Shown: positions 3,938 through 10,738 of the stretch, piece after piece
Position numbering within the stretch: the first letter of the stretch is position 1
Layout: every line of letters begins with the position of its first letter
DNA from: Candidatus Sulfopaludibacter sp. SbA3
GTDB taxonomy: Bacteria > Acidobacteriota > Terriglobia > Bryobacterales > Bryobacteraceae
Length of the DNA stretch: 64,000 nt
Direction of reading: 5' to 3'
NCBI GenBank assembly: GCA_945861625.1
Contig: CAMAVI010000005.1
Span: 1 to 64,000, forward strand
Program-made: the position numbers and the translations under genes
Notes under the pieces: generated by a model
The model's database searches: none
What the model was told of the DNA's origin: nothing
Seen by the model: the letters and a program-made list of their open reading frames with translations, nothing else

Positions 3938-4564
3938 TCATTCTTCGGGCGCGCCCGGGCACGACGCGGGCGAGCCCGGCCAGTTGCCGCCCTGGTACTT
4001 GACAAGCAGGTGGCCGATCAGGATGATCACGGGAAAAACGATGCGTTGAATGATTCTCGGGGGCATCGCCAACTGCTGCGTATGCCGGTGCCGCCACATG
4101 ACATGCGCCATGTAGAAGATTGGAGGCTGGCCGAAGGGACCCGCGTTCACGACTGCGAACACGGCCTGCAGGTAGCGATCCAGATCCACGACAGGAGCCA
4201 CGTGCCCGCTTAATTCCAATAAGTCATCCCCTGAGTTCCACCAGGCGTGGGCCACTCCGGCTGGCAACACAGCGGTTCCCCCTGCCGGCACAATCATCGT
4301 CTTGCCGCCCACGCGCGCGCCGAGCGTTCCTGCTTTCACCGTTCCCCCCTCGTGTTCGTAAAAATGCACGTGCAGCGGTGGGCCGCTCCTCCCCGGCGGA
4401 AGGGAACTGTCAAGGGACAGCATCATCCCGCCCTTCGCGTCGCGCATCCGGCGCATGCGTAGAATTTCTCCCGTATGCCGGTTCTCCAGCCGCAGGAAGT
4501 CTGGCTGCACTTCCGGCTTTGCTTCCGCCTTTGATCCCGGAGCAGCCATTGCTATACTTGACAT
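3938..4564 (-). CDS. cupin protein with C-terminal membrane segment
   Basis: A 208-residue protein with one cupin barrel. Motif 1 is HVHFYEHEGG (His65, His67, Glu71) and motif 2 has His106 (PAGVAHAWW), giving a likely metal site. Residues about 171-190 (IIQRIVFPVIILIGHLLVKY) form a hydrophobic segment that could anchor it to the membrane. The substrate is unknown. The ATG at 4564 was chosen because GGGAGG lies 8 bases upstream; longer frames would run through the operators and the TetR gene. Its promoter and start codon overlap two TetR-type operators, so the divergent TetR protein very likely represses it. Confidence 0.82.
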   Translation of the reverse strand: MSSIAMAAPGSKAEAKPEVQPDFLRLENRHTGEILRMRRMRDAKGGMMLSLDSSLPPGRSGPPLHVHFYEHEGGTVKAGTLGARVGGKTMIVPAGGTAVLPAGVAHAWWNSGDDLLELSGHVAPVVDLDRYLQAVFAVVNAGPFGQPPIFYMAHVMWRHRHTQQLAMPPRIIQRIVFPVIILIGHLLVKYQGGNWPGSPASCPGAPEE

Positions 4565-4572
4565 AGTGTCAA
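4558..4572. promoter_or_regulatory. palindromic operator 1, TTGACA-TAG-TGTCAA
   Basis: A perfect 6-bp inverted repeat around a 3-bp centre. It covers the ATG of the cupin gene (4564..4562) and a possible GTG start of the tetR gene (4566). A second copy lies 45 bases away, centre to centre. Such paired palindromes between divergent genes are typical autoregulatory TetR sites; actual binding is inferred. Confidence 0.75.
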
Positions 4573-4587
4573 CCTCCCAACGCAAGA

Positions 4588-4617
4588 AGAATACACCACA
4601 GCTTGACATTGTGTCAA
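4588..4617 (-). promoter_or_regulatory. sigma70-type promoter of the cupin gene
   Basis: On the minus strand a perfect -35 box TTGACA (4617..4612) is followed after 18 bases by TATTCT (4593..4588), four of six matches to the -10 consensus. The start codon is 24 bases further on with GGGAGG in between. The -35 box lies within operator 2. Confidence 0.55.
4603..4617. promoter_or_regulatory. palindromic operator 2, TTGACA-TTG-TGTCAA
   Basis: The second perfect 6-bp inverted repeat, the same as operator 1 except for two bases of the centre. One arm doubles as the -35 box of the cupin promoter on the minus strand. It also contains the GTG at 4611 used here as the tetR start. Occupation by a repressor would block the cupin promoter directly. 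Confidence 0.75.
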
Positions 4618-5201
4618 TAACAAATTCCAAGGGGCGCATTCTGGAAGCGGCTCTGGCCTTGATCGCGCGCCGCGGCGACGCCCGCGTGACCATGGCCCAA
4701 ATCGCCAAAGCCGCCCGCGTCTCCCGGCAAGCCGTGTACCTGCACTTCGCCGATCGCGCCGACCTGATGGTCGCCCTGGCCCGCCACGTGGACCACAAAC
4801 GGGGCTTGGCGGAAGAAATTCAACGCGTCAACAGCGCGCCAACCGCAAGAGCGGCGCTGTCGGCAATGGTGGCTCTTCAGGCGCGCACCAATCCGGACAT
4901 CTGGGCCGTGGCCCGGGCGGTGGATGCCGTACGCCGGACGGATGACGCGGCGGAACGTTCCTGGCAGGACCGCCTTCAGCACCGCCTGGAGGGTTGCCGC
5001 CAGCTGATCGCGCGGTTGGAGCGCGAAGGGGAATTGCGAAAAGATATCGACCCCGCGGCAGCGGCAGATCTACTCTGGACGATCACTTCGCTGAGGACCT
5101 GGGAAGACCTGGTTCTGCAGCGCGGCTGGACTCCAGAGCATTACCAATCGCACATTACCCGGCTGCTACTGGCGGCCCTCACCCGGGATGGCGGGCTTTA
5201 A
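4611..5201 (+). CDS. TetR/AcrR-family transcriptional repressor
   Basis: A 196-residue regulator. The N-terminal helix-turn-helix occupies about 10-50 (GRILEAALALIARRG, then VTMAQIAKAARVSRQAVYLHF), and the C-terminal helical domain is the ligand and dimer region, ending in an ITSLRTWEDLV-type helix. No ribosome site clearly decides the start. GTG 4611 gives a normal TetR length; GTG 4566, inside operator 1, would add 15 residues. It is divergent from the cupin gene, with both operators in the shared region, implying control of itself and the cupin. Its 3' end overlaps the end of the converging peptidase gene by 36 bases. Confidence 0.88.
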   Translation: MSITNSKGRILEAALALIARRGDARVTMAQIAKAARVSRQAVYLHFADRADLMVALARHVDHKRGLAEEIQRVNSAPTARAALSAMVALQARTNPDIWAVARAVDAVRRTDDAAERSWQDRLQHRLEGCRQLIARLEREGELRKDIDPAAAADLLWTITSLRTWEDLVLQRGWTPEHYQSHITRLLLAALTRDGGL

Positions 5202-8858: not shown

Positions 8859-9710
8859 TTGACTCCCCAGGCTCCACCCCTGAGTTCACCCCTGAGTTCA
8901 TTGGTCCGTCCCCGTGTGTGCGCGGTGAGCTACCTCAACACTGTCCCCCTGGTCTGGGGTTTACTACGCGACCCCGCGCAGAAAGACACGTTCGACCTGC
9001 GCTTCGCCGTGCCTTCGGTCTGCGCCGATCAGCTCGCGTCCGGAGAAGCCGACATCGGCATTGTGCCGGTGATCGAAGCCTCCCGCCAGAAGTTGGATTA
9101 CTTCCGTACCTGCGGCATTGCTTCATACGGCCCCGTCCGCAGCATCCTGCTGATTTCCAAGGTTCCTTATCGCGATATCAAGACTCTTGCCGCCGATTCC
9201 GGCTCGCGCACGTCGGTGATGCTGGCGCGCATTATTCTGGCCGAAAGATTCGGTTGCGAGCCGAGCGTCGTTTCTCACGCGCCGGATCTGGCCGCCATGT
9301 TGGGCCTGGCGGACGCGGCTTTGATCATCGGCGACACTGCCCTGCGCCTCGATCCCGCCACCTTGCCCTTCGAATGCCTGGACCTGGGCGAGGAATGGAC
9401 CGGCCTCACCGGCCTCCCCATGGTCTTCGCCGTCTGGGCCGGGCGCCCTGAATTCATCCGCGAGCCCTTTGGCGAGGCGCTCGCGGCCTCCTGCCGTTAC
9501 GGTCTCGCGCGGATGGACGGCATCGTGCGCGAGGAGGCCCCGCGGCGCGGCTTGCCGGAAGCTCTGGTGCGTGAGTACTTGACCCACTACATCCAGTTTG
9601 AGTTTTCCGCGCCGCATCAGACGGCCATTGAAACATATCTGAAGCGCGCCGCTGCGCTGGAACGCACGGTCGTAGCCGCCATTGCACACCCGGGAGGTGC
9701 ACACGTATGA
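8859..9710 (+). CDS. mqnA: chorismate dehydratase (futalosine menaquinone pathway)
   Basis: MqnA dehydrates chorismate to 3-enolpyruvyl-benzoate, the entry step of the futalosine route to menaquinone. The 283-residue product has the substrate-binding-protein-like fold with VSYLNTVPLVWGL near the start, GEADIGIVPVIE and GLPMVFAVWAG. The TTG start at 8859 is weak: it follows AAAGTAGAAG, and residues 7-15 come from a 12-bp tandem duplication. A later TTG at 8901, just before VRPRVCAVSYL, is a possible true start. The stop overlaps the start of mqnC (ATGA). Confidence 0.92.
   Translation: MTPQAPPLSSPLSSLVRPRVCAVSYLNTVPLVWGLLRDPAQKDTFDLRFAVPSVCADQLASGEADIGIVPVIEASRQKLDYFRTCGIASYGPVRSILLISKVPYRDIKTLAADSGSRTSVMLARIILAERFGCEPSVVSHAPDLAAMLGLADAALIIGDTALRLDPATLPFECLDLGEEWTGLTGLPMVFAVWAGRPEFIREPFGEALAASCRYGLARMDGIVREEAPRRGLPEALVREYLTHYIQFEFSAPHQTAIETYLKRAAALERTVVAAIAHPGGAHV
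8877..8900 (+). repeat. 12-bp tandem duplication at the start of mqnA
   Basis: The 12-mer CCCCTGAGTTCA occurs twice back to back. Read in the mqnA frame it encodes PLSS twice, upstream of the conserved start of the fold. It may be non-coding if translation begins at 8901. Confidence 0.85.
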
Positions 9711-10738
9711 TGACGCGCGCGGAAGCCATCGACATGTTCCACAGCGACGATCTGACCGGCATCGGCATGGCCGCCGACCAGGTGCGGCGCAAGCTGCATC
9801 CGGAAGGCATCGTCAGCTACATCATCGATCGCAACATCAACTACACCAACTTCTGCACCGAATATTGCTCGTTCTGCGCGTTCTATCGCCCACCGGGGCA
9901 TGAAGAAGGCTACGTGCATTCGCACGAAGTTATCTTTGACAAGATCCGCGAGACGCTCGCGCTGGGCGGCACCGGCATTCTGATGCAGGGCGGCCTGCAC
10001 CCGGATTTGAAAATCGAGTGGTACGAAGACCTGCTGCGCGAGATCAAGAAACGCTTCGATATCTGGTGCCACTGCTTTTCGGCGCCGGAGATCGTCAACA
10101 TCGCCGAAGTCAGCGGCCTGTCGCTCCACGACACGCTGTCGCGGCTGCGCGACGCCGGACTCGATTCCGTCCCCGGCGGCGGCGCGGAAATCCTCGACGA
10201 CGACGTGCGGCGCCGCATCAGCCGTCTGAAATGCTCGACGCAGGAGTGGGTGGACGTGCACCGCACCAGCCACGCCGTGGGGCTGCGCACCACCGCCACC
10301 ATGATGTTCGGCACCGGCGAGACCATCGAGCAGCGCATGAACCATCTGGATCTGGTCCGCCAGATTCAGGAAGACACCGGCGGATTCACGGCGTTCATCC
10401 CCTGGGCGTTCCAGCGGGAGAATACTTCGCTAGGCAATTTCGTCAAGCAGGAAGCCACGGCGGTCGAGTACCTGAAAATGCTGGCGCTGTCGCGCGTGTA
10501 TCTGGAAAACATCCTGAACGTCCAGTCTTCCTGGGTCACGCCGGGGCTCAAGACCTGCCAGCTCGGCCTGCGCTTTGGCGGAAACGACGTGGGAAGCATT
10601 ATGATGGAAGAAAACGTGGTCAGCGCCGCCGGGGCCCACCACCGGGCTTCCGAGGAAGAACTCAGGCGGCTGATCCGCGACGCCGGGTTCATTCCCAAAC
10701 AGCGCGACAGCTTGTATCGGACTTATTTTTTGAATTAG
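9707..10738 (+). CDS. mqnC: cyclic dehypoxanthine futalosine synthase (radical SAM)
   Basis: MqnC is the radical SAM enzyme that cyclises dehypoxanthine futalosine in menaquinone synthesis. The 343-residue protein has the cluster motif NFCTEYCSFCAFY (Cys50, Cys54, Cys57), GGTGILMQGGLHP and the MMFGTGET region of the family. It is translationally coupled to mqnA through a 4-base overlap. The later pathway genes mqnB and mqnD are not in the window. Confidence 0.96.
   Translation: MMTRAEAIDMFHSDDLTGIGMAADQVRRKLHPEGIVSYIIDRNINYTNFCTEYCSFCAFYRPPGHEEGYVHSHEVIFDKIRETLALGGTGILMQGGLHPDLKIEWYEDLLREIKKRFDIWCHCFSAPEIVNIAEVSGLSLHDTLSRLRDAGLDSVPGGGAEILDDDVRRRISRLKCSTQEWVDVHRTSHAVGLRTTATMMFGTGETIEQRMNHLDLVRQIQEDTGGFTAFIPWAFQRENTSLGNFVKQEATAVEYLKMLALSRVYLENILNVQSSWVTPGLKTCQLGLRFGGNDVGSIMMEENVVSAAGAHHRASEEELRRLIRDAGFIPKQRDSLYRTYFLN

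Follow-up and report, generated by a model that had tools for sequence, protein, structure and literature searches.

Predicted twin TetR operators at a divergent cupin-tetR locus, one enclosing start codons on both strands

The window, by which we mean the whole 64,000-nt stretch of DNA analyzed here, carries two divergent genes. On the minus strand, positions 3938–4564 encode a 208-aa cupin protein (Pfam Cupin_2, 2.5e-10); on the plus strand, positions 4566–5201 encode a TetR-family regulator of 211 aa when counted from 4566 (Pfam TetR_N, 1.9e-13), whose helix-turn-helix domain (PF00440) scored 50.4 bits against a cut-off of 24. A C-terminal match to TetR_C_11 scored below the cut-off of that family. 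The structure model of the regulator has ten helices (pLDDT 87.7, pTM 0.75) and suggests a helical fold as in the TetR family; residues 9–14 had a pLDDT below 50 and were modelled as disordered. Among solved structures, TetR chains matched the regulator at E 1.6e-7 or weaker, and nothing better than 0.014 was found for the cupin protein. The same-genus genome G010 contained no match to the window TetR, and a search of 61 relatives with the short form of TetR yielded weak matches only, apart from the window itself. Viral contigs gave one weak locus for cupin relatives, and few matches for either protein were found on plasmids, among them Tateyamaria omphalii pDOK1-4-3 and Roseicitreum antarcticum pRA02.

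Two exact palindromes of the form TTGACA-N3-TGTCAA are located at this gene pair, at 4558–4572 (predicted operator O1) and 4603–4617 (predicted operator O2), with centres at 4565 and 4610 and hence 45 bp apart, just as had been reported from a first look at the sequence. That original prediction placed both sites between the divergent genes. The genes are indeed divergent; only O1, however, straddles the gap between them, a single base (4565) that is also the centre of the palindrome, and O2 falls within tetR (codons 13–18), rather than in intergenic DNA, if tetR starts at 4566. When up to two mismatches were allowed, O1 and O2 were the only matches in the window, each with none. Loose matches of this kind are not rare, since shuffled versions of the window contained 1.14 on average and 36 of 100 shuffles reached at least two. 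The exact motif occurs twice in the whole assembly (3.82 Mb in 174 contigs, 94% complete), at O1 and O2 only, and the reversed control pattern did not occur in the same 3.82 Mb.

Within O1, two start codons lie back to back: the cupin ATG (4562–4564, minus strand) and a possible tetR GTG (4566–4568, plus strand) are one base apart, so that this palindrome covers both, as had been claimed. The Shine-Dalgarno sequence of the cupin gene, GGGAGG (4573–4578, minus strand), is 8 nt upstream of the ATG. On the tetR strand this stretch corresponds to the last part of codon 3, all of codon 4 and the first base of codon 5. A GGAGG is equally placed in a second genome of the phylum, G340 (locus L065). 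The anti-Shine-Dalgarno duplex energy for the cupin ATG was -10.9 kcal/mol, versus -0.2 kcal/mol for the next ATG at 4549. By the same measure, no Shine-Dalgarno sequence precedes either candidate start of tetR, namely the GTG at 4566 (+1.3 kcal/mol) or an alternative GTG at 4611–4613 (plus strand; +1.2 kcal/mol), which lies in the same frame beyond 14 intervening codons, is inside O2, and matches the start position in genome G679 and in alphaproteobacterial loci.

Putative promoter elements interlock with these sites. The minus-strand TTGACA of O2 (4617–4612) is a predicted -35 box for the cupin gene, 18 bp from a -10-like hexamer, TATTCT (4588–4593, minus strand; read by eye), and the earlier proposal that one palindrome carries this box gains from hexamers at an equal 18 bp on the cupin side in genome G559 (L184; TATTCT) and in G340 (TAGGTT). 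For tetR, we propose a -10 box, TATACT (4553–4558, plus strand; read by eye), 7 nt before the GTG in O1. Similar boxes are found at the matching distance in G340 (TATACT) and G559 (TAAACT), and no good -35 box to accompany them was seen in either genome. The ACT of the proposed box may also be part of an extended operator arm.

Paired sites are present in G340 and G559 as well, and the register of O1 is matched for both genes in G340 and for tetR in G559. In G559, the partner ATG within the site has a weak Shine-Dalgarno sequence (-3.0) and a later ATG has a better one (-5.1), so the two-start operator is founded on two loci, the window and G340. We prefer the GTG in O1 as the start of tetR, and propose that it is leaderless, on the grounds of its distance from the -10-like box and of a frame that is kept in G340 and G559; the evidence between 4566 and 4611 is mixed. 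The longest reading frames of four cupin orthologues begin later in the protein than that of the window cupin, so the additional N-terminal residues of the latter overlie the proposed tetR promoter. Likewise, the N-terminal extension of TetR, relative to the proteins of G679 and the alphaproteobacteria, covers the predicted cupin promoter.

Across 396 genomes of the window's phylum, taken here to be Acidobacteriota, the exact twin pattern was found only in the window and in G340, where the pair is 42 bp apart and is flanked by a cupin gene (33% identity) and a TetR gene (54%). A search of 399 genomes of the class with the G340 TetR protein returned five close matches (at least 188 bits: G340, the window, G559, G527 and G679), and the next match scored 58 bits. 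All five have the tetR start codon at offset 8 within a site. The two sites of G559 are exact, with a spacing of 39 bp; in G527 there is a single site, with one mismatch, and the exact motif is absent from the genome; G679 has two sites, one mismatch each, 33 bp apart, and one exact motif elsewhere in its genome. Genome-wide, the exact motif in G340 and in G559 amounts to just the two copies at tetR. Profile searches found three carriers among 237 genomes of the family, which makes the gene rare and its distribution patchy, and added G098, G201 and G212 from 203 genomes of the phylum. By eye, G098 has three one-mismatch sites and G201 three sites with one, two and one mismatches, in both cases with the ATG inside the last, and G212 has an exact site at -38 with an in-frame CTG at the expected start position, a two-mismatch site at -80, and its ATG outside.

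The spacing of the two sites had been described as about four helical turns. This description did not survive the comparison: the spacing is 45, 42, 39 and 33 bp in the window, G340, G559 and G679, respectively, and alphaproteobacterial sites lie at about -50, -34 and -8. Helical-phase cooperation of two sites was rejected on these four spacings together with the three-site layouts.

Relatives of the gene pair had been expected to keep the paired sites. TetR relatives do so, but the four closest cupin orthologues (48–63% identity, one from the same genus) lack any site with up to three mismatches in about 3.5 kb each, and no TetR gene was recognized by eye beside them. We also considered the cupin as a general partner and rejected this, because Cupin_2 is found in just four of eight loci of the window's phylum (the window, G340, G679 and G212). 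Partners were identified at seven of the eight loci, all but G201: the partner in G559 is a SnoaL/DUF4440-like protein, that in G527 a rhodanese, encoded upstream on the same strand, and that in G098 an NAD(P)H-binding protein.

A pattern scan of genome_contigs returned at least 117 loci, and among the 117 listed six encode a TetR relative directly at the sites (35–39% identity over 183–215 aligned columns): Hyphomicrobiales, Sneathiella, gammaproteobacterial, Rhizobiaceae (cut by the locus end) and Myxococcales MAGs, and Hyphomonas jannaschiana. Two loci with short, weak TetR matches (L083 and L179) were left out of the six. The ATG is inside a site in five of them, the Myxococcales MAG, read by eye, being the exception. 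A profile from those five loci, run on 289 alphaproteobacterial genomes (the class of the Hyphomonas genome), yielded 24 matches in 21 genomes; the four weakest (126–149 bits, L238–L241) were excluded, and the remaining 20 scored at least 267 bits. The Hyphomonas seed is among the 20, and no other member exceeds 92% identity to a seed. With up to one mismatch, an ATG is at offset 8 of a site in 19 of these 20 loci; with up to two, a site is found at -34/-35 in 20/20 and at -49/-50 in 19/20. The two alphaproteobacterial partners that were tested (L164, L229) are of the NAD(P)H-binding or flavodoxin-like kind, and the others are so by their N-terminus.

The presence of the regulator's start codon inside an operator, part of the original prediction, is conserved among relatives of the TetR protein. 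The start is at offset 8 of a site (up to one mismatch) in 26 of the 28 close TetR relatives from the protein search, that is, in 7/8 in the window's phylum and 19/20 in the alphaproteobacterial set (exceptions: L237 and L244; L242 and L243 were read by eye). For relatives found without using the operator the figure is 23/25, which omits the window and G340, both first seen by pattern, and the Hyphomonas seed; the alphaproteobacterial profile was built from pattern-found loci, and the search itself used protein only. As a control, 25 weaker TetR loci from the G340 TetR search (L188–L212) were inspected with up to two mismatches: none has a site at the gene start and two have one elsewhere. Since the control loci are less related, this comparison speaks to the site as a feature of the clade and not to its being bound. 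Judged by this comparison of sequences, the palindromes are very probably a real, conserved pair of TetR operators. The pair is ordinary in kind, and unusual in its compactness and in the breadth over which the embedded start codon is found.

The surroundings of the tetR start suggest that its mRNA is likely to be leaderless. Before tetR, the mean anti-Shine-Dalgarno energy in the 20 alphaproteobacterial loci was -2.5 kcal/mol (shuffled -1.6), as against -7.9 kcal/mol (shuffled -4.3) for partner starts, which were placed by homology in 18 of the 20; tetR scored better than its partner in two of these 18 (L230 and L233). In a column profile of the 20 loci, a TTGACA-like arm at -34 is followed after 17 bp by a TACTTT-like hexamer at -11 to -6, a layout that would place the transcript start at the ATG. 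A GGAG-like sequence, with energies down to -7.3 kcal/mol, occurs about 12 nt before several alphaproteobacterial tetR starts, and because of these and of L230 and L233 not every tetR need be leaderless.

Collectively, our results suggest that the locus is probably an autoregulated divergent switch, in which the two palindromes are the operators of the adjacent TetR repressor. We infer that, with no ligand bound, a TetR dimer on O2 would sit over the cupin -35 box, and a second dimer, on O1, would cover the tetR transcript start, the cupin ribosome-binding zone and both start codons; occupation of both operators would switch off both genes. The ligand that releases TetR would be a small molecule, and probably one that the partner enzyme deals with. 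The 5' end of the tetR mRNA is most likely at or beside the start codon in O1, which would make this mRNA leaderless and weakly translated, while the cupin mRNA would have a short leader and a good Shine-Dalgarno sequence, so that the promoter of each gene would be situated in the 5' coding part of the other. The overlap of the proposed tetR -10 box with the possible extended operator arm counts against this explanation.

The most serious alternative within such a switch is that tetR is translated from the GTG at 4611, the preceding 15 codons being an untranslated leader; we consider this doubtful, though worth weighing. O1 would then block only the start of transcription and the cupin start, and the start of the regulator would be in the second operator, as first claimed. 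The start codons of G679 and of 19 of the 20 alphaproteobacterial loci do correspond to the operator nearest the helix-turn-helix, and in the model of the long form the first helix runs from residue 15, adjoining V16, after the disordered residues 9–14. However, this start lacks a Shine-Dalgarno sequence, as noted above, no promoter hexamers could be placed for it, and L065 has an ATG in O1 and a GTG in O2. Moreover, in three loci O1 and O2 are separated by a multiple of three (45, 42 and 39 bp), and the linker in each is free of stop codons. The largest difference among these spacings exceeds half a helical turn, which speaks against a pair fixed face to face and in favor of a linker that is coding. 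The frame argument, drawn from three loci, is a weak one, and homology with G679 and the alphaproteobacterial proteins favors the GTG in O2.

It seems unlikely that both in-frame starts are used, which would yield TetR in a long and a short form that differ in the N-terminal arm. An in-frame NTG is present in both operators of the window, G340 and G559, but the operator sequence by itself ([AG]TGTCAA) can account for the NTG in a second site. Recognition of the palindromes by another regulator, or their origin in promoter and coding coincidences, is very improbable: TTGACA is also the sigma-70 -35 consensus, and similar twin TGACA-N3-TGTCA sites adjoin TetR genes of other subfamilies (by Pfam; L101 and L082), so the motif is not private to the clade, but the sites track the TetR clade and not the cupin, being present at TetR relatives with SnoaL-like, rhodanese, NAD(P)H-binding and flavodoxin-like partners and absent from cupin orthologues with no recognized TetR neighbor.

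Returning to the autoregulated switch with tetR starting in O1, one close counterpart is a familiar one. In Tn10, tetR and tetA are a divergent repressor-target pair with autoregulation and with paired operators that lie between the genes. The window resembles Tn10 and Tn1721 tet in its divergent layout and paired operators, its promoters being predicted ones; it differs in operator sequence and in having O1 over both start codons, and its partner encodes a cupin protein and not a tetracycline efflux pump. The proposed window switch would work like a Tn10-type tetR-tetA system, and is not a member of that group.

Other parts also have precedents. In the excerpts of PMC3017554, AcuR of Rhodobacter sphaeroides (acuR-acuI-dddL), which is of the TetR family, represses its own transcript, a leaderless one with the AUG at its very 5' end; its operator, TAATAGAC-n6-GTCTATTA, is over the promoter, and the downstream genes have Shine-Dalgarno sites. 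The mRNA of Tn1721 tetR is cited there as leaderless, too. Like AcuR, the window regulator belongs to the TetR family, would repress itself and would have an operator over a promoter and a leaderless transcript, as proposed here, with a Shine-Dalgarno sequence on the partner gene. Unlike AcuR, which in these excerpts has one operon and an operator over the promoter, the window has a divergent arrangement, an operator over the start codon, and a second start (PMC3017554). SAV576 of Streptomyces avermitilis, according to the portions of PMC3742746 consulted, is a TetR protein with 15-bp palindromes (motif CCRTACRVYGTATGS), one footprint of which overlaps its own start codon, and the adjacent target gene is served by a bidirectional promoter region. 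Its site over the start is at +383 to +407 from the transcript start, unlike that in the window, and the SAV576 mRNA has a long leader for that reason (PMC3742746). AotM of Mycobacterium bovis, a TetR protein, has TGTCAA half-sites at its own promoter and an FAD-dependent oxidoreductase as its target; compared with the window the half-sites are in reverse order (TGTCAATGTTGACA), and start-codon embedding is not described in the excerpts of PMC11351531. A palindrome at a -35 box, its repressor unknown there, appears in an excerpt of PMC3317779.

A further step would be to read the locus as a conserved fusion of operator and start codon, in which the arms of the 15-bp palindrome double as repressor half-sites, as -35 boxes (TTGACA) and as a start codon plus a serine codon (RTGTCA); we hold this to be evenly poised between right and wrong. 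Under this fusion, the divergent genes of the window and G340 would start one base apart in one operator, with their promoters in each other's coding start. While its parts have precedents, the open-licence PMC literature yielded no paper with the exact motif strings, and none with the conserved operator-start fusion or with two divergent starts in one palindrome. If true, repressor binding at a single site would close off the transcription start and the start codon of each gene, and the initial residues of the regulator would be set by the operator of its own gene, in the window's phylum, among Alphaproteobacteria and on one gammaproteobacterial contig. One short sequence would have to serve repressor, sigma factor and ribosome, at two loci on both strands. 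The finding predicts an operator for an unstudied TetR clade in at least two phyla, would correct the start-site annotation of these TetR regulators, and offers a compact switch for synthetic circuits.

Several minor observations accompany this analysis. The Tateyamaria omphalii plasmid pDOK1-4-3 (L216, 2952–3007) has a TetR copy with three sites, one of which embeds the ATG; the gene is divergent from an annotated NAD(P)H-dependent oxidoreductase gene and is followed by ABC transporter genes. At L238–L241, more distant TetR paralogues carry their sites in pairs, each site a related palindrome with shorter spacing (TTTACACGTGTCAAA or TTTACATATGTCAAA); by eye these sites also seem to contain an in-frame start codon, NTG. 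The Myxococcales MAG (L143, genome G895, 9.8 Mb) contains 16 exact copies of TTGACA-N3-TGTCAA and none of the reversed control, and five other genomes have two to four copies; the abundance in G895 perhaps reflects a regulon or several paralogous repressors. Many twin TGACA-N3-TGTCA pairs with a centre spacing of 36 bp were seen (L075, L086, L096, L134 and others), several of which surround a TATAAT-like box by eye. The neighbor of the twin pair at L084 had no Pfam match, and those at L101 (37 bp) and L082 (28 bp) are the TetR genes of other subfamilies mentioned above. Elsewhere in the window, 8859–10738 holds adjacent menaquinone genes of the futalosine pathway, encoding a VitK2_biosynth protein (PF02621) and a radical-SAM protein with a CofH/MqnC C-terminal region.
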